38,215 bases of DNA. Origin: Methanothrix sp. Lineage in GTDB: Archaea > Halobacteriota > Methanosarcinia > Methanotrichales > Methanotrichaceae. The notes beneath the pieces were generated by a model, which made no database searches, had not been told where the DNA came from, and was given only the letters and a program-made list of their open reading frames with translations. Shown one piece after another: positions 6,099 through 29,540 of the stretch. Position 1 is the first letter of the stretch. Each line of letters starts with the position of its first letter. The stretch spans positions 1 to 38,215 of the forward strand of contig JAUWQF010000006.1 in assembly GCA_030611205.1 (NCBI GenBank), read 5' to 3'. A program made the translations under genes and the position numbers.

Positions 6099-6212
6099 GC
6101 GACCTTACCGGAGATCCCAGGGTACTGAACGCGAACACGCTCCGGTGGTACATGGCTCGCAACCCGAGGACGGTGAAACGATGAGCGACCTTACCAAAGA
6201 TCGCAGGGTGCT
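6036..6212 (+). repeat. Imperfect tandem duplication, about 89 bp, across the secF/secD junction
   Basis: Copy 1 (6036-6124) ATGAACGCGAACATGCTCCGGTGGTACATGGCTCGCAA...AAACGATGAGCGACCTTACCGGAGATCCCAGGGTA; copy 2 (6125 to about 6212) CTGAACGCGAACACGCTCCGGTGGTACATGGCTCGCAA...AAACGATGAGCGACCTTACCAAAGATCGCAGGGTG. Confidence 0.9.
6095..6184 (+). CDS. 29-aa micro-ORF, chimera of the SecD N-terminus and SecF C-terminus, overlapping both genes by ATGA
   Basis: ATG at 6095 to TGA at 6184: MSDLTGDPRVLNANTLRWYMARNPRTVKR. Starts in the ATGA at the secF stop and ends in the ATGA of the secD start. Expression unknown. Confidence 0.4.
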   Translation: MSDLTGDPRVLNANTLRWYMARNPRTVKR

Positions 6213-7818
6213 GATCTTCATCGTGGCGGTGGCTGCGGCATTGGTCCTCCTGGCACCGGTGCCTTCCGATGACGGTCTTCAGACCAGGCTCAAGTACGGC
6301 CTCGATCTGGAAGGTGGTTCCTGGCTCCAGCTCAGGCTCCAGGGAGTCATCGTCGAGCTCAGGGCAGATCCAATCAAGATCCTGGAGAAGCAGTTTGGAG
6401 AGGCCTTAGACAGGCCCGTGGTCGTGGAGAAACGCACGGATCGCTATCAGATAACCGTCGACGGGAGGGTGCCGAAGACGGTGCCCGAGGACCTGGGTTA
6501 TCCTGGTGCCAAGCTGACGCCCCGGGGCCACTCGACCAAGATCGACATAGAGACTTCGCCCGTGGGCGTGATCGTGAACTACCTCGAGTCTTCCCTGAAC
6601 GCCGACGTGAGACCGATAAGAGAAGACCCCGACTCCCCTCTGAAATACGAGATCAGGGCCGACGTGACCAGAGAATCGTTGAACGAGATCCTGGCAGAGG
6701 TGGACGGCGAGGTGGCTCCCGGCGATGAGGGCCTCGTCGAAGGAGTGACCGAGGAGACGGTGGACGAGACGAAGCAGGTTCTGGACAGGAAGCTGAACCG
6801 TCTGGGTCTCCAGGACATTAAGGTCAGGGTAGTGGACAACAAGTACATCCTCATCGATCTGGCCGGTGTGGACGTATCCACCGCTCAGGATATCGTGGGC
6901 AAGCCAGGGGTCTTCGAGATAAGGATCCAGACGAAGGGCAACGAGTCGATGCATGTACTCTACGGCGACGATGTGATCGATGTCTCGCCTCCCCTGGGCG
7001 AACTGAGCGGGGGATGGGGCGTGCCCTTCGGCCTGACCGATGAGGGTGCCAAGGCCCTGAGGAAGGCCGCCTTAGATGTGGGCGCCACCACCAACCCGCG
7101 GGATCATGAGCTCTCCATGCATCTGGATGATGATGAGATATTCAGCGGGCCTCTTGCGCCGGAGCTTGCCGCCAGCATAGAACTAGTGCCCATCAAGAGG
7201 ATGACAGCCACGGTGGGAAGCGGCGAAGACGCGACCCAGAGGGCTCGTGAACTCTACATCCACCTCCGCGAAGGCGCTCTGCCCGTCAACGTGGAGATTA
7301 TCGGGTCAGGCCAGGTCACGGCCGCGCTGGGAAAGCAGTTCAAGAAACAGGTAACCATCGCGGGGATACTGGCCCTCCTGGCGGTGGGCCTGATGGTATT
7401 CTTTAGGTACCGGGAACCCAAGATCGTGCTGACCATGGTGGGTACCTCTTTCAGCGAGGTGATCATGATGCTGGGTTTCGCGGCTCTCATCGGCTGGCAG
7501 CTCGATCTGCCCAGCATCGCGGGAGTGATCGCGGTTATCGGCACAGGCGTGGACCATCTGATAATCATCACCGATGAGCTCCTCTACGAGGGCAAGCTGC
7601 CCAGCGGGAAGATATATCTCGCCCGGCTGGCCAGCGCCTTCAGCATAATCATGGCCGCGGCCCTGACCACCATATTTGCCATGTTCCCCCTGCTCATCAT
7701 GGGGTTCGGTGCGCTCAAGGGCTTCGCCCTGATAACCATAGTCGGTGTTCTCATAGGGGTGCTCATAGCTAGACCTGCCTACGGCAGGATAATCGGCTAC
7801 ATCATGAGAGGTGAGTGA
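6181..7818 (+). CDS. secD: Protein-export membrane protein SecD
   Basis: ATG at 6181 MSDLTKDRRVLIFIVAVAAALVLLAP...LKYGLDLEGGSWLQL...GTGVDHLIIITDELL; the track start at 6145 lies inside the duplicated segment. Confidence 0.92.
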   Translation: MSDLTKDRRVLIFIVAVAAALVLLAPVPSDDGLQTRLKYGLDLEGGSWLQLRLQGVIVELRADPIKILEKQFGEALDRPVVVEKRTDRYQITVDGRVPKTVPEDLGYPGAKLTPRGHSTKIDIETSPVGVIVNYLESSLNADVRPIREDPDSPLKYEIRADVTRESLNEILAEVDGEVAPGDEGLVEGVTEETVDETKQVLDRKLNRLGLQDIKVRVVDNKYILIDLAGVDVSTAQDIVGKPGVFEIRIQTKGNESMHVLYGDDVIDVSPPLGELSGGWGVPFGLTDEGAKALRKAALDVGATTNPRDHELSMHLDDDEIFSGPLAPELAASIELVPIKRMTATVGSGEDATQRARELYIHLREGALPVNVEIIGSGQVTAALGKQFKKQVTIAGILALLAVGLMVFFRYREPKIVLTMVGTSFSEVIMMLGFAALIGWQLDLPSIAGVIAVIGTGVDHLIIITDELLYEGKLPSGKIYLARLASAFSIIMAAALTTIFAMFPLLIMGFGALKGFALITIVGVLIGVLIARPAYGRIIGYIMRGE

Positions 7819-7872
7819 AGAAAAAGCCGGGGGTCTCTCCAAGGCCCCCCACTGCTCAGAGGAGGAATAGGA

Positions 7873-8397
7873 TTGAGAACGGGGTTGTTGCTAGCGTCGT
7901 TGCTTCTGCTGACCGCAGCGGTATCGGCTCATCCGGAGACGGTCCAGCTGGGTCGGTATAACGTCTCGTTCGACCTGGGTGCCGGGACGAGCTATACCGC
8001 AGAGGTCGAAGAGCTCGAAGATGGCGGATGCATATCCTATCTATGCTGGCTGAAAGGCGAAGAGGCGATGCTGATCGCCCTGACCGACCATCTCCTGCCC
8101 ATGGTGGTGAGTTATGGTATCATCAAAAAGAGCGTCCAGACCTTTCTCATCGAGGCCAATTGTCGGGAGATCCGGACCCACGAGGTGATCATCGACGGGA
8201 AGCCGGGGGTGCTGGGCCTGGGCGAGCGACCTTCCGGCCCGGTTCTCTTCTGTGTGATCTACTGGCCGGATCTGCACGAGGCCGACGATGGGACCGATCG
8301 TGGCCGGGTAGACTGCACCATCGCCTCGGAAGGGTCTCTGGCGGTGACGGAGAACCTCCTGAACACCATCCATGTGGAGGTACCCCAGGAAGGCTGA
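7873..8397 (+). CDS. Secreted hypothetical protein
   Basis: TTG start with GGAGG upstream at 7861; signal peptide LLLASLLLLTAAVSAHPE; 174 aa. Confidence 0.7.
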   Translation: MRTGLLLASLLLLTAAVSAHPETVQLGRYNVSFDLGAGTSYTAEVEELEDGGCISYLCWLKGEEAMLIALTDHLLPMVVSYGIIKKSVQTFLIEANCREIRTHEVIIDGKPGVLGLGERPSGPVLFCVIYWPDLHEADDGTDRGRVDCTIASEGSLAVTENLLNTIHVEVPQEG

Positions 8398-8401
8398 GCC
8401 G

Positions 8402-8420
8402 TTGGGCGGATCTTGCCCAA
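8402..8420. terminator. Hairpin TTGGGC-N7-GCCCAA between convergent genes, putative terminator
   Basis: Perfect 6-bp stem just after the stop at 8397. Confidence 0.35.
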
Positions 8421-8510
8421 ATATCCACCAGGTATCGATTTGGCTAATCCGCTATGAATTTTCCCAAGTCCAATATCCCACAACATAGCACGAACTGCCA
8501 TAGAAATATG

Positions 8511-9062
8511 TTACCACCGCCCGCCCATCTTCACCAGATACCCCACCATGGCGCTGTGTTCTACTATACAGGCCGCCACGTAGGCCTCTTCCAGGTTCGT
8601 TCCCTGGGTGAAGACCCCGTGGCCCCTGGCGATGCAGGCCCTGTGCTCCCGTAGGGCCTTAGAAGCGTTCCTGGCCAGCTCATCGGTCCCGATCCCCCCT
8701 TCCACTATGGGCACCCGGTGCAGAAAGTAGGAGCCTTCGCTGTCGACGGGCTCGAAGGATACATTTTCCAGGAGCGAGACGACCACCGCATAAGGAGAAT
8801 GTGTGTGGATTATGGCCAGGGCAGAGGTCTCTCCATAGATGGCCCGGTGGACCACGGTCTCGCTGCTCGCCAGGATGTCCAGCGAAGAGGGCCGGCGAAG
8901 ACCCACCTCCACCACCTGCAGCTTATCGATATCGTCCAGCATGGACCCCGACCTGGTGATCACCATCCTATCTGCAGCCCGCATGCTGATGTTGCCGAAA
9001 TGGGAATGGGTGAGACCTGCGCTCACCAGCTTCTTGCCGAACCTGGATATCTCCCGCCACAT
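8511..9062 (-). CDS. Class II aldolase/adducin family protein
   Basis: MWREISRFGKKLVSAGLTHSHFGNISMR...MVITRSGSML...ALAIIHTHSPYAVVVSLL...ARGHGVFTQGTNLEEAYVAACIVEHSA; metal-binding HTH and RGHG motifs. ATG at 9062, 14 nt after the inferred subtilase stop. Confidence 0.85.
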   Translation of the reverse strand: MWREISRFGKKLVSAGLTHSHFGNISMRAADRMVITRSGSMLDDIDKLQVVEVGLRRPSSLDILASSETVVHRAIYGETSALAIIHTHSPYAVVVSLLENVSFEPVDSEGSYFLHRVPIVEGGIGTDELARNASKALREHRACIARGHGVFTQGTNLEEAYVAACIVEHSAMVGYLVKMGGRW

Positions 9063-9076
9063 CTTCGCACCACACC

Positions 9077-10946
9077 CTAAACCAGGTTGAAAGGAACCGA
9101 ACAGGTCGCAGCATCTCCGAACCCGTCCCGGGCAACCACCCGCAAAGAATAGTCTCCGGGCACCCAGAACTCGGTCTCCCACCCGGGCGGTGTAAGTCCC
9201 ATCGAGATCGGTGTCGTACATGGGTATTCGGATCTCCTTCTCAGGTCCCATCACCAGGACCTCCGCGCCGCACACATCTCCGGATATTTCCGCTTCGATG
9301 ATCATCCGATCGCCCGGGCTGGTCCCGGCGCCTGCCAGGCGGACGTTGCTCACGATGGGCCCTTTCACCGCAGGATCTTCTGTCATCTCCAGGGACCGGC
9401 TGAGGTTCAGCTCGCCCCATCCGTAGGTGTTGTCGGGACCTGGGACGCCCAGGTCGTCCGCCGACCTGAGCAGCGCCCTCTTTACATCTGCCGGACTGAA
9501 ATCCGGCTCTTTTTCCAGGAGGACCGCGATCGCTCCCGCCACCTGGGGTGCGGCCATCGAGGTCCCGTCCATGGTGCTCCGACCCTGGAGAGTTCCTGCC
9601 CTGGCAGAGCCTACATCCACACCTACCGCTACCAGGTCGGGCTTGATCCTGCCGTCCGAGGCCGGACCACGGGACGATCTCCGGTAGATCTGCCCTCCGG
9701 CATCCACCGCCCCCACGGTTATTACCTTCTCTGCGCTGCCGGGGATCACGATCGATCTGGAGGCAGGTCCGGAGTTGCCCGCAGCCACGCAGACTACCAT
9801 CCCTTCGTCCACTATCCTGTCGCAGGTCCTGTCCAGGAGCGATCTCCCATCGCGGGGAGCTTCTCCGCCAACGCTGAAGGATATCACGTCTATCCCCAGC
9901 TCGTCTCGCTCCTCCGTGCACCATTCGAGAGCCTTGAGGGCGTCTGATAGGTAGCAAGCACCCTTATCGTCCATCACCTTGACCACCACCAGTCTCGCCC
10001 CGGGCGCGACCCCGCCATCGGTGCCCGCTATAAGCCCGGCACAGTGGGTCCCGTGACCATGATCGTCATAGGGCTCGCTGCGACCGTTCACGAAGTCCTT
10101 GAAGGCGACGATCTTGGGGTCGTTGGTGGATAGATCGTCGTCCATGTCGTCTAAAGACCGATGCTTAGGATCGATACCCGTGTCCAGCACGGCCACCGTC
10201 ACGCCCTTGCCGGTGGCGTTGGGCACCCTCATCCGGGGATCTTCGAAGGGGATGTACCCATTTTCCAGATCGCCCAGGATCTGGAGCTTCTGGTCTTTGT
10301 ATATCCCCACAACACCCTTGAGCCTGGCCAGGTCTTCTAACCGATCGCCTGGGATCACCATGGAGAAACCCGACAAGATCCCCGGCTCAACCCTGAACCG
10401 TCCTAGGACCTCCTCCCCCTGGGTAACGTTCTTGTCGTGTATGACGATTACCCTCAGCTCATCCGGCCCCAGGCACTCCAGGCTATCCTCGATCCGGTTG
10501 AAGTTTAGGTCCCGTAGATCGAAGACGGCAACGGTCTGGTTATCGTCTTTGGCACCGTTGCCGCATCTGTCCACCGCAACGATGGTGATCGTGTAGTTTC
10601 CCGGCGAAAGATTGGGACTCCAATAGCCCACATAGCTCCCGTTCCTCTGGATATCTATCATGGGGATGAAACGCCCGCCCACCTCGGCATGTACCGAGCC
10701 GATGCCGGTCTCGTCTCTGACCCGGGCGTTGATCTTGGTCAGGTTCCCGTATGTTACCGTCTCCGGCGCCTCGACGCCGAGGATGACGGGCGGCGTCTGG
10801 TCGCAGGCATCTGAAAAGTGGATACTGCCCGGGTATCCAGTGAACCAGCAGGTCGGCTCTTCGGTGCCAGGGTATGAGGCACCCGGACCAAGAGCATAGG
10901 TCAGCACAAGAAAAGAAAGAAAAAATAAGGGTGTCGAGCGCTTCAT
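9077..10946 (-). CDS. Secreted S8 family subtilisin-like serine peptidase (frameshift near the 3' end in this sequence)
   Basis: Signal peptide MKRSTPLFFLSFLVLTYALG; VAVLDTGID (Asp), HGHGTHCAGLIAG (His), GTSMAAPQVAGA (Ser). After a shift near 9175-9195, the alternate frame reads ETEFWVPGDYSLRVVARDGFGDAATCSVPFNLV*, ending at 9077. Confidence 0.85.
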
Positions 10947-12569: not shown

Positions 12570-14120
12570 CTAATCTATGCTCCAGCCCGATCTGGGCAGG
12601 AGCTCCACCTCCCCTATAGGTTCTTCGAACTTGTTTCCTTTAATGTCTTTTGCGGTCAGCACGACCTCGTACCGGCCGGCGTTCATCAGGGCGGTCATCA
12701 AGGTGCCCTCATAAATGTTATCTCCGGCCCGGGTCACGGAGACGTACCTGGAGGGTTCCGAGAGGTCCACGACGTTGTGAGCACGGGCCGATACCTGAGC
12801 CACCCCGTACTTCGATTCCAGGGTCACCCGGACCTTTACCTGCTCGCCGATACGGGCACGGGCGGGGATTATAGCCCGCTCCACCATCTTGAGAGGCAAG
12901 ACCGACCGGCCCATTATGGGGTACCTGTCCCAGGTATACTCGTTGATCCAGTAGGGCTCGTCCCCGAAGCCGTCGCTTCCCGAGACGTTCTGGTCGGTCC
13001 CGCTCATCAGGTCCTGGCCCTGGTAGTCTCCCCAGAAGTTGCCGCCTCGGGGGTAGGCGTACCATTTATTTGTCCCTCGGTCCAGGGCCTGGATCACGTT
13101 CTCGAAGAAGCGGTTGTTGTAGATGATGTTGCCGTCCGTATCCAGATAGATGCCTTTCTGGCTGTCGGATACGTTGTTCTGGACGATGGTGTTGTTGCCG
13201 GGTCCTTCCTGTATCTGGATCCCGTACCTGGTGTTACCAGCGATCTCGTTGCCCATTATGAGGTTGCTGCCCGAGCCTTCGTAGAGGGATATTCCCACCA
13301 CATCATTATTCGAGATGGTGTTGTTCAGGATCCTGTTCTCGACGCAGCCGTGGATCATCTTGAGGCCGGAGTTGCGGTTATGGACGAGCCGGTTCGATTC
13401 GATCAGGTTGCCGGAACAGTCGGTGAACATGTAGATCCCATAGTCGTTCCTCTCTGCAACGTTCCCTTTGATGACGTTATCGCGACAAGAGGGGAAGAGG
13501 CATATGCCGTACTCGCCGTTGTCGTTGGCGGTGTTATTCTCGATTCTGTTCCGGTTTGAGTTGGAGAGGTATATGCCGTACCAGCCCTCCTCCCCCAGGC
13601 CGTTGAAGCTGGCGACGTTGTCCTCGATCACGTTCTCATCCGAGTATACCAGGGTGATCCCGGGTTGCACACAATGGACGACTGTGTTATTGGAGATCAG
13701 GCAGCCTCGTGCATGATCCAGCTTTATGCCGTAGAACCCGTCTCTGATCACGAACCCGGATATGTTGACGTTGTTCGCCCTCACCTCGACGCAGGCCTCT
13801 CTGCTGCTTGCCCGGATCACGGCACCGTTGCCGACCAGGTCCAGGCTCTTGGTGATCACGATCTTACCGTAGCTGTAGCTGTCAGGGCCAGGACTCACGA
13901 TGAGCGTATCACCGGGAGCCGCTGCATCTATCGCCGCCTGGAGATCGGTGCCGACCTGGTACGTGGCGGCCGATGCTCCCGTGACAAGCAAAAAGACGAT
14001 ACACAGGATCGCGCCCGCCGGGCGGCGCCCGTATGCTGACTTCCTCAAGCAACCCACCAGTTCAAAGAGCGATCGCCGGTTAATAAACCTAACGTGGACC
14101 TCTCGGGACGATGAGGTCAA
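12570..14120 (-). CDS. Secreted right-handed parallel beta-helix (NosD-like / PbH1 repeat) protein
   Basis: Repeated N..I.NN.....YGIYL..S..N.I..N...; NFWGDYQG motif; N-terminal signal region and AIDAAAPGDTLIVSPG. Confidence 0.88.
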   Translation of the reverse strand: MTSSSREVHVRFINRRSLFELVGCLRKSAYGRRPAGAILCIVFLLVTGASAATYQVGTDLQAAIDAAAPGDTLIVSPGPDSYSYGKIVITKSLDLVGNGAVIRASSREACVEVRANNVNISGFVIRDGFYGIKLDHARGCLISNNTVVHCVQPGITLVYSDENVIEDNVASFNGLGEEGWYGIYLSNSNRNRIENNTANDNGEYGICLFPSCRDNVIKGNVAERNDYGIYMFTDCSGNLIESNRLVHNRNSGLKMIHGCVENRILNNTISNNDVVGISLYEGSGSNLIMGNEIAGNTRYGIQIQEGPGNNTIVQNNVSDSQKGIYLDTDGNIIYNNRFFENVIQALDRGTNKWYAYPRGGNFWGDYQGQDLMSGTDQNVSGSDGFGDEPYWINEYTWDRYPIMGRSVLPLKMVERAIIPARARIGEQVKVRVTLESKYGVAQVSARAHNVVDLSEPSRYVSVTRAGDNIYEGTLMTALMNAGRYEVVLTAKDIKGNKFEEPIGEVELLPRSGWSID

Positions 14121-16035: not shown

Positions 16036-17226
16036 TTGTTTTTAGTAGGAGAAGCGCTTATCGGCGAGGGGCCCGAACTCGCCCACATCGATCTAATTAT
16101 AGGAGATAAAGAGGGGCCCGTGGGCACGGCCTTTGCAAACGGACTATCACAGCTTTCTGCCGGCCATACCCCGCTGCTTTCGGTGATCCGACCAAATCTG
16201 CCGGCCAAGCCTGCGACCCTGATCGTGCCCAAGGTTACTGTGAAGAACATGGAACAAGCGGGCAAGATATTCGGGCCGGCACAGACCGCGGTGGCCAAGG
16301 CGGTGGCAGATTCCGTGGCGGAAGGCGTCCTTCCCGCGGAAGATGTCGAAAATATGGTGATAATCGTCAGCGTCTTCATACATCCAGAGGCGCGCGACTA
16401 CGAGGCAATATACAGGTACAACTACAGCGCTACCAAGCTATCGATCCAGAGAGCCATGGACAAGTTCCCCGATGTGGAGACTATGCTCTACGAGAAGGAC
16501 CGTTCCACCCATCCCATGATGGGTTTCCGGGTGATCAGGCTGTGGGACCCTCCCTATCTCCAGGTGGCTCTGGACCTGGTGGACCTCGCAGAGGTCAAGA
16601 GGGTGCTCTCTCTACTTCCTGATAGCGACCATGTCCTGATCGAGGCTGGAACGCCCCTGGTGAAGAAGTTCGGCGTCAATGTGGTCAAGGATATAAGGGC
16701 GGCAAGACCGGGGTCCTTCGTGGTCCTGGACCTGAAGATCCTGGATACCGGCAACCTGGAAGTCAGGCTGGCCGCCGACGCTACCGCAGATGCCGTGGTG
16801 ATGTCGGGTCTTGCGCCCCACAAGACGCTGGAGCTGGCCATCAAGGAGGCCAGAAAGACCGGCCTGTATTCGATCATCGATATGCTGAACGTCTCTGATC
16901 CCCTGGAGGTCTTGAAGGGGCTCTCCGTGCTGCCCGACGTCGTCGAGATGCACAGGGCCATAGATATGGAGGCGGAGAAGCACAACTGGAAGACCATAAC
17001 GGAGATCAAGAAGCTGGCCGAGTCTTCGCCTCGCAGGCTATTGGTGGCGGTGGCAGGAGGTATCAGGGTGGATACCGTGGCCGAGGCCCTAGGATCGGGA
17101 GCGGACATAATCGTGACTGGACGGGCCATCACCAGGTCCAAGGATATCAACGATGCCGCAGATCGGTTCCTGGCCCAGCTCAAGCAGACGGAGATCGATC
17201 AGTACCGGGTAATGACCGACTTCTGA
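16036..17226 (+). CDS. fae-hps: Bifunctional formaldehyde-activating enzyme / 3-hexulose-6-phosphate synthase (Fae-Hps)
   Basis: TTG start at 16036 behind AGAGGTGAAG gives [30 protein letters not shown] (Fae), then [17 protein letters not shown]...[22 protein letters not shown] (Hps). The track start at 16009 is upstream. Confidence 0.93.
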
Positions 17227-17227
17227 G

Positions 17228-18553
17228 ATGCGCCTTCTGATCTTCCTTCTTTTTCTGCTTCTGGGCTCTGCTCAGTCTCTGACCGAGGTTTTGGTAGGGC
17301 AACCACCAGACCGTCCCCAGGGAGCGGTGGTACTGGTGGTCGACGGGATGGGCTCGTCTTATGTCTATCCCGAGTACGATGCACGGGCTCTGGATGGTAG
17401 GGTCCTGGGAAAGGCGGCGCTCTTCAGCCTCGCCGGTGGTGCCAGGGTGCTGGACGTCAGGGTTCCGGTGCCCGGTGCCGGTCACAACGTATTGGTCACC
17501 GGATGTCCCTGGGCCGACGAGCCTCTGGAAGGGACGACCATATTCGACCTGGCCCGGGAGAATAACTTCACCTGTGTGGCCCTGCTCCAAAAGGGCTCCC
17601 TGCCTCTGGCGCTGGAGCAGGACGCCTTCCTCCTATTCGGCGAGGGTGTCGCTGTCGCCCTGGACGCGGAGCCTGTGGTGGGGACGAGAGCCAATCTCTC
17701 TCCCGATCTGGTATCGCGGCTCTGTGGATGGCGAGACCAGTTTCCCGCGTACGCCGCCGGGCGCGGGCGCGGAATCGAGGGCTGCATCGGCTCCAACTCC
17801 TGGGGTCTGGACGCTGCCGTCGATCTGGTAGGGGCCCTGGATCCGCCTTTCGTCCTCCTGGTGGACCTGGGCGGGGTGGAGGATGCGGGCCGTCTCCTGG
17901 GGCCTGAGGCGTACCTGGAGGCAATCGCCTCGCTGGACGAACCCCTGGCGAGGCTGGTCCAGGCCTGCGAGGGGCAGGACCTTCTGCTCCTGGTGACCGC
18001 CGATGGTGGCATGACATTCTCGGACCGGGGCCAAATCGACCCCGGCCGGATGGAGAGCCTCAGGGTCCCTGTGGTCTTTATGGGGCCCGGTGTCGACGAT
18101 ATTATCTTGACCGGGGCCTGGTCCCAGACCGATATAGCGCCGACGGTCGTAGAGATGCTGGGCCTGGACGGGAGCCTCTCCCGGTCGGAGGGGTCTGCCA
18201 TGCCGGTGCGGAAGCGCTACGATCTGGAGGTCAGGGGAACAGAGCCTGCTGATGTGGTGAGGGTACGCCGGGATGGCGGCCTGGTGGCCGAAGTTGCTGG
18301 GGACTCCGGGTACATCTTCAGGGGGATGGATCGGGGAGCCTATACGATGGGGGTGGGCAGACGGTCGGTCCCGGTATGTCTGAACGGCGACGGGTTCCTG
18401 GATCTTGCCACCACGGGCAGGATGTCGGGCGTCGTCGTCGCCTGGCCCGCGCTTCCTCATGTGGAGGGGAGGACGCTTTTGGGTGCGTTTCTCATACTGA
18501 TGATAAACCTGGCCGGGGTGGCGATGATCGTTCGGATCGTTCGAGGGGGGTGA
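17228..18553 (+). CDS. Membrane-anchored alkaline phosphatase/phosphodiesterase-superfamily-like protein
   Basis: Signal peptide; GAVVLVVDGMGSSYVYPEYDA, VTADGGMTFSDRG, APTVVEMLGLDGS; C-terminal TM AFLILMINLAGVAMIVRIV. Confidence 0.7.
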   Translation: MRLLIFLLFLLLGSAQSLTEVLVGQPPDRPQGAVVLVVDGMGSSYVYPEYDARALDGRVLGKAALFSLAGGARVLDVRVPVPGAGHNVLVTGCPWADEPLEGTTIFDLARENNFTCVALLQKGSLPLALEQDAFLLFGEGVAVALDAEPVVGTRANLSPDLVSRLCGWRDQFPAYAAGRGRGIEGCIGSNSWGLDAAVDLVGALDPPFVLLVDLGGVEDAGRLLGPEAYLEAIASLDEPLARLVQACEGQDLLLLVTADGGMTFSDRGQIDPGRMESLRVPVVFMGPGVDDIILTGAWSQTDIAPTVVEMLGLDGSLSRSEGSAMPVRKRYDLEVRGTEPADVVRVRRDGGLVAEVAGDSGYIFRGMDRGAYTMGVGRRSVPVCLNGDGFLDLATTGRMSGVVVAWPALPHVEGRTLLGAFLILMINLAGVAMIVRIVRGG

Positions 18554-19693: not shown

Positions 19694-20064
19694 AATAAGA
19701 TATATGGGCACATCAAAAAAGAAAACGATGGGGGGAACTGCTTCAATTCTTGAAATATATTCGCTCGTTTTACAACGAAAAGCTGCATATCATCCTCGAC
19801 AACTTTAGCCCACATAAAAAGGTCGAAGTAGTTTTATGGTACAGGGAAAATACTATAGAACTGGTATTCCTCCCAACCAATGCTTCTTGGTTGAACCTGA
19901 TAGAATGTCACTTCACTGCGCTTAGAAAATTCGCTATCCGTAACTCGAACTATCAGAACCACAAAGAGCTGGGAAGCGACATAAGGAGATATTTTATTTG
20001 GCAGAATGAAAATTGTGGTGATGAAAAATTAGAACGAATTGAAAATGGGATTAACTTTTCATGA
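19691..20064 (+). pseudogene. 3' remnant of an IS630-family transposase
   Basis: DNKIYGHIKK (frameshift in an A6 run) RKRWGELLQFLKYIRSFYNEKLHIILDNFSPHKKVEV...VFLPTNASWLNLIECHFTALRKFAIRNSNY...IRRYFIWQNEN; second catalytic D and the final E are present, 5' half missing. Confidence 0.82.
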
Positions 20065-20640: not shown

Positions 20641-20735
20641 AAACATGTTATCAACAAACCATAAGTGTTAAATAGTAAGAAGTATACTGATATTTTAGCG
20701 TGGCAATGCCTCGACTAAAAATGGGAGGTGGAAAA

Positions 20736-20879
20736 ATGGAAGAATTTGCAGGAGCAAACCAAGATGGGGGCGTGGTGCCGGATGCCTGCTGGTGCGATTG
20801 GTGCAATTGTTCGGGTGGTACCGCACAGAGTACCTTTTACGGCCAGGACTACCAGACCAACCCCTCCAGGTATTGGTAG
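20736..20879 (+). CDS. Putative RiPP precursor peptide, 47 aa, core motif CWCDWCNC
   Basis: ATG at 20736 behind GGAGGTG: MEEFAGANQDGGVVPDACWCDWCNCSGGTAQSTFYGQDYQTNPSRYW*. Cys 18, 20, 23, 25; Gly-Gly at 11-12 and 27-28; directly upstream of two radical SAM genes. Below the ORF-track cutoff. Confidence 0.8.
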   Translation: MEEFAGANQDGGVVPDACWCDWCNCSGGTAQSTFYGQDYQTNPSRYW

Positions 20880-20890
20880 GGTAGTGTAAG

Positions 20891-20940
20891 TAAGGACAGA
20901 GCGGCATCTGAAACAATCGTTGCAGATGCTGCTATCCTTA
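20891..20940 (+). promoter_or_regulatory. Long intercistronic hairpin between the peptide and the first radical SAM gene
   Basis: TAAGGA(20891-96) CAG AGCGGCATCTG(20900-10) AAACAATCGTTG CAGATGCTGCT(20923-33) A TCCTTA(20935-40); 17 paired positions with one G-U and a small internal loop. Confidence 0.65.
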
Positions 20941-20997
20941 TATTTAGCAGCTCGTTTCGAGATTTGTGACCATTATAAGCGGAAGACGGTGGCAAAA

Positions 20998-22485
20998 ATG
21001 TTAGAATTTGAAACTCCAGCAGGAAATATGTATGCTTGGGATGATGAAGTAGGTCTATTCATTCCATTTTCTCTGGATATGAGGGCGGTCCTAAACGAGA
21101 TCTCAAGCCAAAAGTCATTAGCTAGAGAGAAAGTTATAGGGCAACTAAAAGAGAATTTCGATGAAGAAGAAGTCGCATTTTGCTACGATTGGTTTCAAAA
21201 GTGGGAAAAAATTAGACATCAAAACTATCAATCTCAAAATCCTCGAATGTTTCATGTATCGGATATAAGAAATTACGTGTTAAGATTCGGTCTTTTACGT
21301 CTCACGTTATGCATCACAGAGGATTGCAACTTCAGGTGTAAATATTGCGCTTATTCCGACTTCTACGAGTATACTCGCAATCCTTCTAATAAGTATATGG
21401 ATTTCACCATTGCAAAGAAAGCAATAGATTACTACTTCTCGTTATTAAAGGAAGGAAAGAGATACAATCCTTTAAGAAAACCTGCAATAGGATTTTATGG
21501 AGGTGAACCCTTATTGAATTTCAAATTAATTAAAAGGATTGTGAATTATATAGAAAATAAATATAATGATTGCAAAATTATATATACTGTTACCACAAAT
21601 GGCAGTTTACTAGATGAAGAAAAGGCAAACTGGCTTATGGGACGTGGTTTTATCATAGATGTTAGTCTGGATGGGCCCGAAGAGGAGCACGATAGACTTA
21701 GAGTTTATACCAATGGAAATGGAACCTTCAGAGATGTTATGAAAAATGTCGGTTCAATAATGGAAGCTGGATATAACGATATCGGATGTCTTCCAGTTTT
21801 TGATTGGAAGAGCGATCTATTCAAGCGGGAGGAATTTTTCAATAGACACGACGTTCCACGAGTACAGGGGGCGTTCCCAGTTGACGACGTGGAAGGGTGT
21901 TCATATTATCAGCAATTCACAAATGAGGATCGTCTTGCGTTTATAGAGCAGTTTGAAAGAGCTAGAGACTACTATTTTACGAACCTAGATCGCCAAATAC
22001 GAAGAAAAAAACTATCTCTTTTCGATGATATAATCGGCCAGGCTCCAAAAAATGCACTCTTCAGGAGCATATCAATCTATCGACATCACTCAATAATGCC
22101 ATTTACCGGCGCATGTATACCAGGAAGAAAAATATATGTAAATGTAAATGGAAATTATTACATGTGCGAAAAACTAAATGAGGGTTTCCCTATTGGAAAT
22201 GTGAATGAAGGACTGAGTTTTGAAAAAATCCTTAAATTAATTTATGAATATAATAATTCTATGGATAGGTGTCCAGAATGCGAAGTGGCACGTAGATGTA
22301 TCTGTTGTTATAAATCTTTTGAAATCGGTAATGGGTTTTTGTGCTCCTCAGAAGTATGCAAAGGAATCGAATCTGATATGAAAAAATCTTTTATTGATAC
22401 GTTTGAAATAGCTGAAAAATATCCAGAATTTGTAGAAGAGAATGCCTTTAAACATAAAAACATCAAAAAATACTACGGTAGGTAG
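20998..22485 (+). CDS. Radical SAM/SPASM peptide maturase (Cys-rich-peptide-maturase-like)
   Basis: CITEDCNFRCKYCAYSDFYEYTR (CX3CX2C), GFYGGEPLLNF, VTTNGSLL, DVSLDGP; SPASM-type Cys cluster CIPG...MCEKL...CPECEVARRCICCYKSFE...LCSSEVCKG. ATG at 20998 with GGTGG upstream; track start is 20920. Confidence 0.87.
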   Translation: MLEFETPAGNMYAWDDEVGLFIPFSLDMRAVLNEISSQKSLAREKVIGQLKENFDEEEVAFCYDWFQKWEKIRHQNYQSQNPRMFHVSDIRNYVLRFGLLRLTLCITEDCNFRCKYCAYSDFYEYTRNPSNKYMDFTIAKKAIDYYFSLLKEGKRYNPLRKPAIGFYGGEPLLNFKLIKRIVNYIENKYNDCKIIYTVTTNGSLLDEEKANWLMGRGFIIDVSLDGPEEEHDRLRVYTNGNGTFRDVMKNVGSIMEAGYNDIGCLPVFDWKSDLFKREEFFNRHDVPRVQGAFPVDDVEGCSYYQQFTNEDRLAFIEQFERARDYYFTNLDRQIRRKKLSLFDDIIGQAPKNALFRSISIYRHHSIMPFTGACIPGRKIYVNVNGNYYMCEKLNEGFPIGNVNEGLSFEKILKLIYEYNNSMDRCPECEVARRCICCYKSFEIGNGFLCSSEVCKGIESDMKKSFIDTFEIAEKYPEFVEENAFKHKNIKKYYGR

Positions 22486-22487
22486 AG

Positions 22488-23630
22488 ATGTACTTCAGAC
22501 TAAATCCAGAATGCTATCTAATTAGGGGGGTGAAGCGAGGAGCAATTTACGATTTAATAGATGAGAAAATATGTGCTCTGAATCAACAAGAAACGGAATT
22601 AGTGACATCCTGTGAAAAAAATAACCATGTCCGAGGGGATGAAAAACTTCTATTTAGGCTTAAACAGCTTCGCATGGGGAACTTCTACCAAAATAAAGTA
22701 TATATACAAAAATTGAGAGTTGGATCTCCCATCAAGGAAATGGAGAGCGATCCTCCAGCACTTCATAGAGCTTTCCTTGAAATAAACAACTCATGTAATA
22801 GGGATTGTTGGTTCTGTGGTTGCCATGGGATAAAAAGAAGTTTTGGATGCATGGGATGTAATAAATGGAATGAAAGCGGCGAGATCTTAAGTTTAGAAAA
22901 GTGGAAAGCAATTATTGATGAGCTAAGAGACCTAGATTGTAGAGATATTTTTATAACAGGTGGAGACTTGACTTTAGTATGGGATAGAGCGATAGATATC
23001 TTAGATTATGCAAATGGGAAATTCAGAAATATCTATATGATACTTCATCAGCAAAGCTTATCTTTAATTAAAATAAACGATTTGGCTGATAAAGCTAACA
23101 TAATCGTCCAAGCTGATGATTTTAACACCATACAATCCAAAGATCTAGCAGTCCTCGTGACGGTGAAGCCCGAAAACTGGGAGGACGCTAATAACATAGA
23201 AGGCAAAAATATAAGGATAGATTTTGTTATTGAAGACGAGAATTCCTTGTCAAATGATCTGCCGTTAGTATCTAAAAATAAGATTTTACCGGTAAATATG
23301 TATCGGTTTATGAACAACTTAGAATATCACCCATGTCTTGGACATACATTAGCAATTTGTTATAATGGAAATGTCATTCCATGCCCCATGATGAGGAGTC
23401 ATAGCTTTGGCAATGTGAGAGACAGAGAACTCTATGATATTTTCGAAAAAGAATGGGAGGATATAGATAAATTTTGGAATTTAAATTTAGATACAATAGA
23501 AAAATGCACAAGTTGTGAATTCAGATATGCCTGTACTGATTGCAGGGCCTTGGAAGAAAGTTTAACAGGGAAATTAAAGGGCAAGATACTATGCGGCTAT
23601 GATCCAAAAGAAGGAGAATGGCTGCAATGA
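22488..23630 (+). CDS. Second radical SAM/SPASM protein
   Basis: FLEINNSCNRDCWFCGCHG (CX3CX2C), DIFITGGDLTL, C-terminal HPCLGHTLAICYNGNVIPCPMMR...KCTSCEFRYACTDCRALEESL...CGYDP; 2 nt after the first radical SAM gene. Confidence 0.85.
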   Translation: MYFRLNPECYLIRGVKRGAIYDLIDEKICALNQQETELVTSCEKNNHVRGDEKLLFRLKQLRMGNFYQNKVYIQKLRVGSPIKEMESDPPALHRAFLEINNSCNRDCWFCGCHGIKRSFGCMGCNKWNESGEILSLEKWKAIIDELRDLDCRDIFITGGDLTLVWDRAIDILDYANGKFRNIYMILHQQSLSLIKINDLADKANIIVQADDFNTIQSKDLAVLVTVKPENWEDANNIEGKNIRIDFVIEDENSLSNDLPLVSKNKILPVNMYRFMNNLEYHPCLGHTLAICYNGNVIPCPMMRSHSFGNVRDRELYDIFEKEWEDIDKFWNLNLDTIEKCTSCEFRYACTDCRALEESLTGKLKGKILCGYDPKEGEWLQ

Positions 23631-25327
23631 TGGATAGGTACAGATATTTCATTACTAAATTCGTTAGACCACATGCCCTCACCATGGTACTTCTCATTGC
23701 TTTGAGCTTTGTGGGTACGCTCTTTTCGATCATCACTCCCTTGCTCGTCAAGTCTCTAGTAGATGACGTTTTTATAGGTGGAAGGACCGGGCTGTTCGGC
23801 TATATCCTCTTAGGAACTGCAGGGATATATATCATTTCATCGCTTTCATCTTACATATCGGGCTTTAAAAAGGGAAAATTGGACCTAGTTCTTTTTAATA
23901 ATGTCACCAACGAAGTATTTAACGCAATCCAACTTGCACCTATCAAAAAAACGCAGGATATGAAAATTGGAGATCTGCTCAGCCGCATCATGGTTAATAC
24001 AAGATCTGCCATAAATATGTTCACATATATCATTCCAGAGTTTATTATCAGTGTTATACGTATTATCTCACCGCTTACTATAATGCTTTTTCTAAACCTG
24101 CAGCTTACTCTTATTGTGGTGATACCTGCGATACTCTTCCTCTTCCCCATGTCGTTTTTCGGAAAGAGATTAGAGGATACGCAGAGGACATCCTTGGTGA
24201 AGACAGCATCAATATACTCATTTATAAAAGAAAATCTCTCCATGATGCCGTTAATAAAGGTTTTTGTGCTTGAGAGGTGGTCTCGAGACAAGTTTGCCGA
24301 AGAGATGAGAGGTTACTATGATGCATCTATAGATTATACAAAGCACTCCTCTCTGAACAACTCTATAGGTTCTCTAATGAGCGGAGTGCCCATGGTCCTT
24401 CTTATCTTGTTTGGCGGGCCGATGGTGATTCATGGTTCCTTGACCATAGGCACGTTTACTGCTTTCATGAGCTATGTCGGTCTCTTCTTTGCCCCCCTCT
24501 CACAACTTGCATTCTTATGGTCCTTTTATAAGAGCTCTTTGCCCGCCTTCGATAGAATTAACATCGTACTTCAACTGGAAAAGGACGAGGGAGGAGAAGA
24601 AGAGCTAATAGTGAAAGATGGCATGATAGAATTTGATGATGCCTGGTTTTCCTACAATAATAGGCCGATCATCCACGGCTTCAATGCCACCTTTACGAAA
24701 GGCTTGAATTATATGGTGGGAGATAACGGGGCGGGGAAGTCTACAATCCTCAAATTGCTCTGTTCCCTTTATTCATTGGATAGTGGGCAGATCAGGATAG
24801 ATGGGCTGGATATCTCAAAGGTGAAGGGGGGTGACCTGAGAAAGAACATCTCGATGATATTCTCGGAGCCCTACCTGTTCGATGGTTCCATTTATGAGAA
24901 TATTCGCATTGGCGATCTCTCGGCATCCGAAGAGAAGATCATCTACGCTGCGAAGCAGATCCGCGTGCATGAGTTCATAACTAGCCTGCCCCAGGGGTAT
25001 CAAACGCAGGTCGGGGAGAGTGGATTGAAGCTGTCAAGCGGGGAGAAACAGAAGATCTCCCTGGCAAGGGCCGTCTTGAAGAACTCTCCGATAATTCTTC
25101 TCGACGAGGTGACCAAGTCCATAGATATAGAGTCGAGAAGATCGATCAACGAGGTCATCAAGGGTTTAAAAGACGAAAAAACGATAATAATCATCACCCA
25201 CAACGTAAACGAAATAGAGCCTGGCAGCAATATAGTTTATTTAGGCCAAGAAAGTCAACGAAAAGATCGCACCCATCGTTCTATCGAAGTACCTCTGCCA
25301 AGGGCAGTATCTCTGCAAAGGGCATAG
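23627..25327 (+). CDS. ABC transporter, fused permease and ATPase (exporter type), no C39 peptidase domain
   Basis: MMDRYRYF...TM domain..., Walker A GDNGAGKST, signature LSSGEKQK, Walker B IILLDEVTKSID, H-loop ITHN. Overlaps the second radical SAM gene (TGCAATGATGG). Track start is 23618. Confidence 0.9.
   Translation: MMDRYRYFITKFVRPHALTMVLLIALSFVGTLFSIITPLLVKSLVDDVFIGGRTGLFGYILLGTAGIYIISSLSSYISGFKKGKLDLVLFNNVTNEVFNAIQLAPIKKTQDMKIGDLLSRIMVNTRSAINMFTYIIPEFIISVIRIISPLTIMLFLNLQLTLIVVIPAILFLFPMSFFGKRLEDTQRTSLVKTASIYSFIKENLSMMPLIKVFVLERWSRDKFAEEMRGYYDASIDYTKHSSLNNSIGSLMSGVPMVLLILFGGPMVIHGSLTIGTFTAFMSYVGLFFAPLSQLAFLWSFYKSSLPAFDRINIVLQLEKDEGGEEELIVKDGMIEFDDAWFSYNNRPIIHGFNATFTKGLNYMVGDNGAGKSTILKLLCSLYSLDSGQIRIDGLDISKVKGGDLRKNISMIFSEPYLFDGSIYENIRIGDLSASEEKIIYAAKQIRVHEFITSLPQGYQTQVGESGLKLSSGEKQKISLARAVLKNSPIILLDEVTKSIDIESRRSINEVIKGLKDEKTIIIITHNVNEIEPGSNIVYLGQESQRKDRTHRSIEVPLPRAVSLQRA
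25289..25324 (+). repeat. 18-bp tandem repeat x2 in the ABC transporter C-terminal tail
   Basis: GTACCTCTGCCAAGGGCA / GTATCTCTGCAAAGGGCA, encoding VPLPRA/VSLQRA. Confidence 0.75.
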
Positions 25328-25712
25328 GATCTTTAGTTACTTTTGGGTGATAGGAGGATCTGTTGCATAATATAACACAAAGTCTAAATACCTTGTGTAT
25401 CATACTCCGTCAATTGCCGTAATCCGAAGCGGTAAGTGGGTGTGGGGTGACCGCCGTAATAATGTAATCCTTGCAAATTAACACCGGCAGCGTTCTAGTG
25501 CATGTCGAAGTGGCAAGGGTGGTTTAATGAGGGAACGAAGCAAATTAGCAGAGTCTGGACCGGTTACTAATAAGCTTACCACTTCAAAATTAGTGGAGAG
25601 GCTTGTTCTTATCCTGACATATGTGATGAGTCTATTACAGCCTACGGGAAGGTCACTAGGAATATCTATTTCATCATTCCATCAATATATTCGTATCAAA
25701 CGTGGTGTTTTA

Positions 25713-28700
25713 ATGAAGAACGCAAGATTTTCCGTTGTTTTATGGTTAGTAGTAGTAGTAATAGTAATAATAATAATACCTCCCTCAGATGCGTTAGATA
25801 GCGGCAATCCTGCTCTTTACGACGCATATAAAAAGTCTCTGGAGGAGCTCGGAGTCGAGGATGCCTGGGATATGGGCTACACGGGTAAGGGTGTGAAGGT
25901 AGCGGTGATAGATAGCGGTATAGACTTCGCCACTCCAGACCTCATAGGGACCCAGGCTCGAGTATCAGACTCGCGTTCTCCTTACTTTGGCTGGCCTATC
26001 GTGGTCGATCTAGCCTCGCTCTCATCCCATCAGCAGAATATCTCTGTCTATAACACTCAATATGCAAACACGATCTCTACCGATGTGAAGGGCTACCAGA
26101 TAACAGGGACCAGTAAGAGCGGCATTTACCACACGGGGGATCACCCCGACCGGCATCTTGCCGAATTTTACGGCCAGCCGGTGAAGGTTCTCTTGGTCGA
26201 CGAGAAAATTTCCGGCGTTTATGACACGGTATACGTCGATCTGAACAACAATCTTGATTTCAGGGATGATAAGCCCTGCCGAAAGGGCGATGAGATCTCC
26301 TACTGGGATAGAGACGAGGATGGTTATCCAGACGAATCCGGTGGCATGATCTACTTTATAGCAGACGGCAAAACCCCTCTGCCCTTCTCAAAGATGCTCT
26401 ACGGTGAGTGGGCAAAAATACCGAAGAATGGAGAGTTGGTTGCATCCCACTTCGATGACGGCAATCACGGCACAATGTGTGCCGGAATTATAGCTGCCCA
26501 GGGCAAAAATATCAAGGGCATTGCCCCTGATGCCAGGCTCATACCGATTCGATTATCTGGAGCAAATGACAAGCTTCTCTGTCTCCTCGCCTCCCTTGGC
26601 TACGATGGAGTTCCAAATACGGGAGATGAAGCAGACGTTATAAGCCGAAGTGGAGGTTTCCGGGACACCTTCAACAAAGGTGGTGATGAGGGGTCGGCCT
26701 TCTTAGAATATCTCACTACCAGAGTTTCACCCTCTACAACCATGGTGTATGCGAATGGAAACGATGGCTCGGGGTACGGCACCTGCGATCCTCCTTCGAG
26801 CGAACACGTAATTAATGTTGGCGCAACCTATGATCTATGGTGGAACGGCTCTTCCTATAGAGGTGATGTGGCCTGTTTCTCTTCTCGCGGTCCAAACGCT
26901 CTAGGTCAAGTCAAACCGAACGTGCTGGCTACTGGCTATCGTGCGCCTCAGCCTTTGCCTCTATGGACGACTCACAGTGGTAAAGCCGCATGGAACGATT
27001 GGGGTGCTGGAACCAGCGGAGCAACGCCGCACGTCGCCGCAGTTATTGCTCTGATCTACCAGACTTACAAAGAGAAGTACGGACGATTTCCCACATCTGA
27101 GAAGGCCAGGGACATTCTCATGTCCTCAGCCATAGATATAGGTGAAGAGGTCTTCGCCCAGGGTTCAGGAACAATAGATGCCAGAAAGGCGGTGGAGGTC
27201 GCATCCGGGAAAGACGGGGTTCTGGTTGAACCCGCACTACTAATCACCCCGCCTGTTGTGGCCGGATCTACTCTGGAGTTCAACTTCACAGTTTCAAATT
27301 ATTCTGATAAGCCAATTAATCTAAAACCCGAAATACTGATAAAAAACAAAACCAAAGAGTTAACTCTGAAATCTGCGAACGAACGTTCCTTTTTCCCCAT
27401 ACCTCGGGATATGCTCGACTGCGATTTGATGAAGGTCTCCACCTATTATCCAAGAGATGCCAGGAACACGATGCTGAACAAAGAGGAGGGATATGATCTT
27501 TACCTCTACAACTGGAAGGATGTGAACGGCGACGGAGAAATACAAGAAGGCGAACTTGAACCCATAGCGTTAAACATCGGCGATTGGGGTTATGGATTTA
27601 CCTCCGAAGTGAGAATGCACCATCCTGAAGAACGAATAGATGACGGGCTTGTGGTCGGCCTGAAAATGAGAGGTGAAATAAAGATAGATAAGGTAAAGGC
27701 GGTGATTGAGACATACAGATGGAAACCATGGGACATCGGAGTAAATATCGATGACAATAATGTCCACGTTTCAATACCGACGTCCAATACCACAGGGGTG
27801 TTTCAGGGAAAGATACTTTTGGAAGAAGGTGGCGAGAGACATTGTATCCCTATATCTTTCTCGACCTATAGATGTGATGATATCTCAATAAACAACACGA
27901 GAGATATCTACGAGAATGCCAAGATCTACGGAAGGTTTGAAGGGGATGGCAAAAGCGGCTGGGATTCGAGATTCTATCCGGTATACCATCATGGTCACGA
28001 TTTAGCGACCATTGAGGTTGCATGGGAAGACACGAATACGGATATAGATGTTTATCTCTATGGATGGGATAACTTCAGCGCCTCAGAGGTCTGGAAATAC
28101 CCCACAAAGCCCCCCATAGAGCTTCCCAAATTGAGGGCTCTAAAAGAAAACGGGCATAGCCTAAGGATCTTGGGAACCACTGTTATTGTATGTGGAGATA
28201 GGGCCAGGGGCGGCCCCAGCTACAGCGCGTTTTACACATCTACTGGAGAGAACAGAGAAGTGATAACCGGTGAACTTACGGATGGGCTAAACCTCGTTGT
28301 CCTGCGTCAAGTGGTCCCTGGAGGCAATAAGTACGGAGAGAACATAACTGTAAAGGTCAATGTTGTGCCTTTTAGTCCTATAGATCTCAGAGCTAAAGCT
28401 GGAGAGACGGTTCTTATGCCAGCCGGAACAGGCAGCGTAATGGGCTTTTCCAGAGGCGAAAAGGTCAGAGGCGGAGAGTTCATCCCAAAGGCATTCCAGA
28501 CAGAGGAAGGAGATGTAATACTGATCCGCTCCAACAATACCCTCTACATGCCACAGATATTCTTCGATTCAAACGAGAATGGAATGATGGATGAGGGCAT
28601 AGACATGTCCTTTGGATCAGAAGGTAATGTGATGGATGAGCTGATATTTGGCGAGAGCAGAAATGACGATATAAATCCCTCTTATACCGATATAATACCA

Positions 28701-29540
28701 ATCCGTAAAGAAGGAACTTACTTCCTCAGGAATTTCGGCGGCCAATGCGAACTTTATCACATGAAGGATCGATACGAGGGTAACGCCAGCGCACCGATGA
28801 AGATCAAAGCGCCTGAACAATCAGGGGTATATTTGGGGATAGCAGAAATGGATGGAAACCTCATTCCTGTTCCTCTAAAACTGGTGGTAACGACCGGAGA
28901 ACCTATATCCATCCACCTAGACACCGTAAATCGTACTGGTCGCAATTTGCTTTTCGAGGTGAAACTGGAGATACATGACAAATTTGGTAACCTCGTCGAA
29001 GATACAGTCGATGTCACTGTAGAGTTCAATAACACAACGAAGAATGTGGATTTCATAAAAGGAAGGGGGGCGATCAACTTAACAGCGCCCGATAAAACCG
29101 GAATATACAGGATAACAGCACAGAGCAGACACAGCATAGCGGAAACGGATATTGAAGTAGATGATGAAGCTGTTGACGAAATCGAGAATATCAGCGTTAA
29201 TGACGCAATGATTGCAGAAAAAACAGATGAGACCTCTGAGACGAGAGAAACGGCATCGTCGGAAGTAAAGAACGATTCACCCGAAACGATTGAATCTGTA
29301 TCGATCCTCTCGGCTGGTGGCAACATAAACCTCACATGGCAAGCTTCAGAGAAAGCTGATCATTATAACGTGTACCGCCTTAAACGTAATATCCCGGAGA
29401 AGCTTGCTGAAGTAAAAAATCCTGAATATACCATGAAGGGGGAGCTTTGGGAGAGCTATACGTTTTGTATATCTGCTGTGAACATCTCAGGAGATGAAGG
29501 CGAACTGAGCGATCCTGTTGGGATCGTAGTTACACCATAA
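25713..29540 (+). CDS. Large secreted S8 family subtilase with C-terminal fibronectin-III-like domain
   Basis: ATG at 25713: MKNARFSVVLWLVVVVIVIIIIPPSDA signal; VAVIDSGID (Asp), NHGTMCAGIIAAQG (His), GAGTSGATPHVAAVIALIYQ (Ser); C-terminus NLTWQASEKADHYNVYRLKR...YTFCISAVN. Track start 25527 is probably too far upstream. Confidence 0.87.
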   Translation: MKNARFSVVLWLVVVVIVIIIIPPSDALDSGNPALYDAYKKSLEELGVEDAWDMGYTGKGVKVAVIDSGIDFATPDLIGTQARVSDSRSPYFGWPIVVDLASLSSHQQNISVYNTQYANTISTDVKGYQITGTSKSGIYHTGDHPDRHLAEFYGQPVKVLLVDEKISGVYDTVYVDLNNNLDFRDDKPCRKGDEISYWDRDEDGYPDESGGMIYFIADGKTPLPFSKMLYGEWAKIPKNGELVASHFDDGNHGTMCAGIIAAQGKNIKGIAPDARLIPIRLSGANDKLLCLLASLGYDGVPNTGDEADVISRSGGFRDTFNKGGDEGSAFLEYLTTRVSPSTTMVYANGNDGSGYGTCDPPSSEHVINVGATYDLWWNGSSYRGDVACFSSRGPNALGQVKPNVLATGYRAPQPLPLWTTHSGKAAWNDWGAGTSGATPHVAAVIALIYQTYKEKYGRFPTSEKARDILMSSAIDIGEEVFAQGSGTIDARKAVEVASGKDGVLVEPALLITPPVVAGSTLEFNFTVSNYSDKPINLKPEILIKNKTKELTLKSANERSFFPIPRDMLDCDLMKVSTYYPRDARNTMLNKEEGYDLYLYNWKDVNGDGEIQEGELEPIALNIGDWGYGFTSEVRMHHPEERIDDGLVVGLKMRGEIKIDKVKAVIETYRWKPWDIGVNIDDNNVHVSIPTSNTTGVFQGKILLEEGGERHCIPISFSTYRCDDISINNTRDIYENAKIYGRFEGDGKSGWDSRFYPVYHHGHDLATIEVAWEDTNTDIDVYLYGWDNFSASEVWKYPTKPPIELPKLRALKENGHSLRILGTTVIVCGDRARGGPSYSAFYTSTGENREVITGELTDGLNLVVLRQVVPGGNKYGENITVKVNVVPFSPIDLRAKAGETVLMPAGTGSVMGFSRGEKVRGGEFIPKAFQTEEGDVILIRSNNTLYMPQIFFDSNENGMMDEGIDMSFGSEGNVMDELIFGESRNDDINPSYTDIIPIRKEGTYFLRNFGGQCELYHMKDRYEGNASAPMKIKAPEQSGVYLGIAEMDGNLIPVPLKLVVTTGEPISIHLDTVNRTGRNLLFEVKLEIHDKFGNLVEDTVDVTVEFNNTTKNVDFIKGRGAINLTAPDKTGIYRITAQSRHSIAETDIEVDDEAVDEIENISVNDAMIAEKTDETSETRETASSEVKNDSPETIESVSILSAGGNINLTWQASEKADHYNVYRLKRNIPEKLAEVKNPEYTMKGELWESYTFCISAVNISGDEGELSDPVGIVVTP

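Follow-up and report, generated by a model that had tools for sequence, protein, structure and literature searches.

Gene organization of the locus

We analyzed a stretch of 38,215 nucleotides from Methanothrix sp. (contig JAUWQF010000006.1), called the window in the following. Between roughly 20 and 29.5 kb the GC content falls from about 0.60 to 0.36-0.48. The first gene of this low-GC island is a short open reading frame, which is followed on the same strand by two genes for radical SAM/SPASM proteins (maturase 1 and maturase 2), a gene for an ABC exporter and a gene for a large subtilase (Table 1). The reading frames outside the island look like ordinary chromosomal genes.

Table 1. Features of the peptide cluster (positions refer to the window; residues to the precursor protein)
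Feature	Position	Strand	Characteristics and evidence
Probable archaeal TATA box TTAAATAG	20668..20675	+	Putative function; alignment of five upstream regions
Conserved 5'-UTR element	20697..20721	+	Short hairpin followed by CGACTAAAA; related element at four other loci
Shine-Dalgarno sequence GGAGGTG	20724..20730	+	GGAG, AGGAG or GGAGGTG also 5' of other precursors
RiPP precursor, 47 aa	20736..20879	+	Homologues, profile, codon divergence, shuffles
Precursor layout			Acidic leader 1-17; Cys block 18-25 (CWCDWCNC); SGG turn 26-28; tail 29-47
Stem-loop between precursor and maturase 1	20888..20944	+	Folding z -3.4
Radical SAM/SPASM maturase 1	20998..22485	+	RRE-like N-terminus, CX3CX2C, full seven-Cys SPASM
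Radical SAM/SPASM maturase 2	22488..23630	+	CX3CX2C, full seven-Cys SPASM
ABC exporter	23618..25327	+	Permease and ATPase in one chain, without C39 peptidase domain; overlaps maturase 2
Secreted S8 subtilase	25527..29540	+	Long C-terminal extension; PF00082 1e-33; D/H/S motifs present

The short frame is translated to MEEFAGANQDGGVVPDACWCDWCNCSGGTAQSTFYGQDYQTNPSRYW. The original prediction of this ORF was exactly right with respect to translation and coordinates, and the Shine-Dalgarno sequence that it proposed is present, but 5 nt, not 6 nt, separate this sequence from the ATG at 20736. A longer start in the same frame would be the GTG at 20700; the homologues, however, align from MEEF or MEVF. 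We found no support for the minus-strand ORF overlapping the precursor (20695-20916), which had already been regarded as spurious. Searches of Pfam and NCBIfam gave no match for the window precursor, and the NCBIfam models matched none of the six precursors compared with them.

The TATA-like box reads TTTATATAG at three other loci, and the combination of this box with a hairpin element ahead of the Shine-Dalgarno sequence is common to five loci. Across the loci the short stem of the 5'-UTR element is altered on both sides, and the genome G015 contains three further copies. Nothing in Rfam matched the element above the gathering score. When its pattern was searched genome-wide, background matches were about as frequent as in a reversed control and only the copies at the clusters of G007 and G015 look specific. 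At six of the seven loci, the stop codon of the precursor is followed by a stem-loop whose sequence differs from locus to locus: in addition to the window, four loci with differing sequence have z values of -3.6 to -5.5, and L102, where a T tract follows, has a z value of -2.1; the structure is weak in L028 (z -0.4). This stem-loop might limit read-through into the maturases.

The short frame is a conserved gene

Three genomes of the same family carry five further full copies of maturase 1 outside the window (identities of 73, 62, 58, 55, and 51%), and a search of 236 other genomes of the class gave no further full copy. The corresponding precursors are MEEFSKANQDGGTPEACYCNWCSCSGGNAQSVFYGQDYQTNPSKYW (L024, 5' of maturase 1), MEEMEVFEGETVAGTGENAPAPCCLSCGCSGSLGYNQMNAQWNAGNW (L025, where, relative to the Shine-Dalgarno sequence, the second Met four residues later has the better position), MEVFKGEGYGISIETPAACDCRCYIRCKGSTYPNATAWQDWQAHLTQ (L026, 5' of maturase 1), MEVFYGEGAEESGQEEEMACCFTACKGGVWVEILSSRPDYTA (L027, 5' of maturase 1), and MEKITKLDAESIQVSCTSACWSYCNIDQNFNYNNDGLFLQLNRAC (L028, on the opposite strand). 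The seventh precursor locus, which was found last, belongs to another archaeal family and contains CCCTCTCTCCC. This locus is in G289, a genome of family f10 (as is G269); the fragment of maturase 1 there has 50% identity over 187 aligned positions, and the region 5' of it contains MYIANIEEVVEGPLGCCCTCTCTCCCGSVITRDISGSLNSANVGVGEWSDVHD, whose ATG is preceded by AGGAGG. In L040, from another family of the phylum, a seventh copy of maturase 2 is adjoined by the end of a maturase 1. A contig scan beyond the phylum with a single maturase sequence returned only a distant Rickettsiales enzyme of 23% identity, which is a weak negative because the six short exact peptide patterns used would miss even homologues of 62% identity.

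The closest homologue of the window precursor is L024:462-602 with 78% protein identity. The two genes differ by 36 nucleotide changes, distributed as 5, 7, and 24 over codon positions 1, 2, and 3; 19 codon changes are synonymous and 10 are non-synonymous. None of 20,000 random-substitution trials gave as few amino acid changes. A broken frame or loss of the Cys residues had been named as the observation that would speak against the ORF, and we find that in this homologue the frame is open and all four Cys are retained, while Trp 19 is replaced by Tyr. Across the paralogues it is the presence of a Cys block that is retained; Cys spacing, Trp positions and the C-W alternation vary.

We further asked how many ORFs of this kind lie beside maturase 1, counting Shine-Dalgarno-led frames of 35-65 aa with at least three Cys within 10 residues, a definition set after the precursors had been seen. 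Each of the seven readable regions (700 nt each) contains exactly one such ORF, and dinucleotide shuffles yielded one in 0.3-2.1% of cases per locus, fractions which cannot be multiplied as if independent because the loci are related. At E < 1e-9, a profile built from the six precursors known at that time recovered these six copies alone from the 50 family genomes; the best remaining match had an E value of 1e-3. Judged on these sequence comparisons, the 47-aa ORF 20736-20879 is a real gene and more than a chance frame. A 42% match to the precursor on contig C65 of the window's own genome was rejected: it is short, and among the frames listed for L002 no maturase is recognizable.

In all seven precursors a short acidic leader of 15-22 aa, with net charges from -1 to -7, precedes the Cys block, and a tail of 17-27 aa ends the peptide. 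The Cys block comprises 3 to 8 Cys with variable spacing, and Cys is its sole constant residue. On its C-terminal side, six of the seven precursors have the motif C-[S/K]-G-[G/S] or C-G-S. The tails of most precursors are rich in aromatic residues, and no single acceptor residue is conserved among them. The cluster is patchily distributed, occurring in 4 of the 50 family genomes with several copies per genome, and transposase pieces at the island edges would fit this distribution. One such piece of a DDE transposase (DDE_3) lies at window positions 19750-20064, and a transposase-like ORF was seen at L026:1559-2809.

Two radical SAM/SPASM maturases

Both maturase genes are readable at six loci, and at each of these maturase 2 lies directly 3' of maturase 1. 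The SPASM domain of maturase 1 has the pattern C373-X11-G-X4-C390-X34-C425-X2-C428-X5-C434-X2-C437-X16-C454 and that of maturase 2 the pattern C283-X10-G-X4-C299...C340-X2-C343-X5-C349-X2-C352-X16-C369; in both proteins the CX3CX2C and SPASM cysteines are invariant alignment columns. The best NCBIfam families for maturase 1 are CcpM (6e-67), RumMC (2e-55), and PapB (3e-38). Against the curated cut-offs, however, it stays below that of every named equivalog, PapB included, scoring 226 versus 500 bits for CcpM (TIGR04068) and 188 versus 720 bits for RumMC (NF035951). Maturase 2, unlike maturase 1, is nearest to the grasp-with-spasm SPASM maturase, also under the cut-off.

Among proteins of known structure CteB is the best relative of maturase 1, in sequence (4.6e-28) as well as in a fold comparison covering the full chain (3.5e-16). 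The structural model of maturase 1 is of moderate quality (pLDDT 69.5), and its residues 2-68 form an RRE-like b-b-b-a-a-a arrangement with block pLDDT values of 61-87. The model of maturase 2 was poor (pLDDT 48) and its structure was set aside.

Export genes

The subtilase is 1337 aa long as annotated, with its start probably at the ATG at 25713. Such subtilases occur in 3 of the 50 family genomes, all three of which bear the cluster, and in L024 the exporter and subtilase genes overlap by 4 bp. L026 and L028 have no adjacent subtilase and a different ABC protein instead. This second ABC protein type (L026:6251-8095 and L028:3938-5785) is 80% identical between the two loci. No immunity gene was recognized at the cluster.

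Proposed biosynthesis and alternative explanations

A small precursor gene beside a radical SAM/SPASM maturase, the arrangement by which radical SAM RiPPs are recognized, is present at all seven readable loci. The suggestion of a RiPP-like precursor whose Cys core could form thioethers is strongly supported by the neighboring maturases, which the original prediction had not mentioned. We consider it likely that the cluster directs the synthesis of a two-maturase RiPP of methanogens, in which the maturases form thioethers from Cys to the tail and the peptide is exported, cleaved by the subtilase and acts on other cells. The RRE-like N-terminal domain of maturase 1 would bind the short acidic leader (about residues 1-17), and maturase 1, helped or followed by maturase 2, would link the Cys of the block by thioethers to tail residues, perhaps also to neighboring residues. 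The product could be a hairpin of the sactipeptide kind, turning at the conserved [S/K]G[G/S], which the ABC protein would export and from which the secreted subtilase would cut off the leader outside the cell. The sequence data show the gene, its homologues, the conserved cluster and the domain content; the thioether chemistry, the maturase order, the cleavage by the subtilase and its site, and the activity and biological role of the peptide are what we infer here. Leader peptidases of the S8 family are known in other RiPP systems, e.g., NisP (PMC10885120).

Thioethers between the Cys block and the tail appear to be the most likely chemistry because the best families of maturase 1 are thioether makers or maturases of Cys peptides. 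Which residues would be bridged is not predictable, because the number and spacing of the Cys vary and no tail acceptor is conserved. A RiPP with a chemistry other than Cys-to-tail alpha-thioethers, such as beta/gamma-thioethers as in ranthipeptides, Trp/Tyr C-C or C-O crosslinks, epimers or a mixture, with a separate job for each maturase, is in our view unlikely, although it is the most serious competitor: CteB and the PapB family stand on the ranthipeptide side, maturase 2 differs from maturase 1 and is nearest to grasp-with-spasm enzymes, and aromatic residues abound in most tails. The Cys block, on the other hand, is the only constant across the precursors. The CX3D/E pattern of PapA (PMC9413430), typical of freyrasin-type ranthipeptides, is absent from the window precursor and is no shared feature of the seven. 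Trp crosslinks, which had been proposed as well, are disfavored, as the Trp positions are not conserved, the closest homologue having Tyr for Trp 19 and most others lacking the C-W alternation.

It is very improbable that the radical SAM genes are mere chance neighbors of a small unmodified Cys protein that binds metal, be it metallothionein-like, a zinc knuckle or a copper chaperone. Four Cys in eight residues would hold a soft metal and the L024 precursor gives a weak zinc-finger match (E 0.007; 16.6 bits, the cut-off being 27), but all seven homologues, from two archaeal families, adjoin the same maturase and the Cys spacing is too variable for one metal site.

The idea of a GG-leader peptide cut at residue 12 or 28 by a C39 exporter is largely refuted and scarcely credible any more. 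The window precursor does contain Gly-Gly at 11-12 and 27-28, with matching GG in L024, but GG 11-12 is missing from the more distant homologues, and GG 27-28 belongs to the motif recurring in six of the seven precursors and more plausibly forms a turn from the Cys block into the tail. A C39 peptidase is found neither in the exporter nor in the genomes G000, G007, and G015, three of the four cluster genomes, the only match being in G027; cleavage of the GG type is therefore unlikely. Finally, a spurious ORF, for which only its shortness below the usual gene-calling cut-offs speaks, can practically be dismissed in view of the synonymous-type divergence, the homologues at every readable locus and the conserved Shine-Dalgarno and 5'-UTR elements.

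Possible role of the peptide

Coming back to the proposed thioether-bridged RiPP, the rapid variation of its core, which the maturases do not share, makes an action of the mature peptide on other cells most likely, with antagonism as the first candidate role and signaling as the second. The variable cores next to conserved enzymes, the several copies per genome, the patchy spread and the AT-rich island are all compatible with an antagonistic peptide. Only tentatively do we go further and envisage a fast-evolving archaeal system in which two different radical SAM enzymes act on one Cys-block peptide and a dedicated family of large secreted subtilases matures or gates it, the product being a thioether archaeocin of methanogens for competition or recognition in methanogenic communities.

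In other archaea the same enzymes are accompanied by related yet highly divergent peptides, which suggests a family of modified archaeal peptides that has not been described before. Modified peptides of archaea are little known, and annotation pipelines are likely to miss the family because the precursor is shorter than 60 aa. If this is confirmed, methanogenic archaea would have a peptide weapon or signal that is open to testing, and crosslink specificity could be studied with a radical SAM system of two enzymes whose substrates vary in nature.

Comparison with known systems

SCIFF is one conserved peptide with a single maturase. The likeness to this system lies in CteB, the closest solved structure to maturase 1 in sequence and fold; the present clusters differ in having hypervariable peptides and two maturases.

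Ruminococcin C (RumC/RumMC2) resembles our peptides in its short leader and in the four Cys present in RumC and most precursors here. RumC has four Calpha-thioethers, and the RRE-rSAM-SPASM maturase RumMC carries a motif of the type C-X11-13-G-X4-C...CX2CX5CX2C...C, to which the SPASM motif of maturase 1 belongs (PMC8188230). In contrast to RumC and the sactipeptides, however, the Cys lie here within 6-11 residues with variable spacing and the host is an archaeon; moreover, the second maturase is no near-copy of the first and maturase 1 is below the RumMC cut-off. A Cys block followed by a tail of 17-27 residues fits the sactipeptide arrangement of N-terminal Cys and C-terminal acceptors, a likeness of layout only.

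Two dissimilar rSAM/SPASM enzymes per cluster are also found for thuricin CD and thuricin Z (TrnC/TrnD and ThzC/ThzD). For thuricin CD the two unlike enzymes, with an RRE in TrnC, act together on the precursors, and in both systems the Cys lie near the N-terminus of the core and the acceptors C-terminal, as we propose here (PMC12093266). Compared by motif, the SPASM Cys are reduced in TrnD-like enzymes, but all seven are present in both maturases of our cluster.

CcpM/CLI_3235 (SacP23) and freyrasin (PapA/PapB) likewise combine a Cys-rich short precursor with an ABC exporter (PMC10731318). CcpM is the best NCBIfam match of maturase 1, yet the cut-offs of both CcpM and PapB are missed, and the SacP23 partners TIGR04066/TIGR04069 are replaced here by the second radical SAM enzyme and the subtilase. 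Among archaea, the experimentally linked case of modified peptides that we found is the haloarchaeal lanthipeptides (PMC10105419). In the open-licence literature we found no paper on a radical SAM peptide from Methanotrichaceae.

Further genes near the clusters

The large subtilase is repeated in tandem next to the cluster of G015, in at least four copies (L083:4786-12503, L084:53-2995 and 5378-9148) that span the start of the record; one is shortened near two transposase-like genes. Between two peptide clusters of the same genome lie three near-identical genes for 303-aa proteins (L082:9717-10628, 13208-14119, and 16822-17733, all on the minus strand). The one protein tested contains the PatG_D and PatG_C domains of cyanobactin proteases. 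Each gene is preceded by a precursor-type promoter region with the 5'-UTR element, and a truncated ABC gene lies ahead of two of them. Six of the 50 family genomes contain PatG_D, and G015 has another four copies at 1848-1860 kb; PatG_D was rejected as a required part of the cluster, being absent from the window's genome and from G027. By the second ABC protein, L082:5610-5978 encodes a 122-aa winged-helix regulator (TrmB/ArsR-like), possibly a regulator of the cluster.
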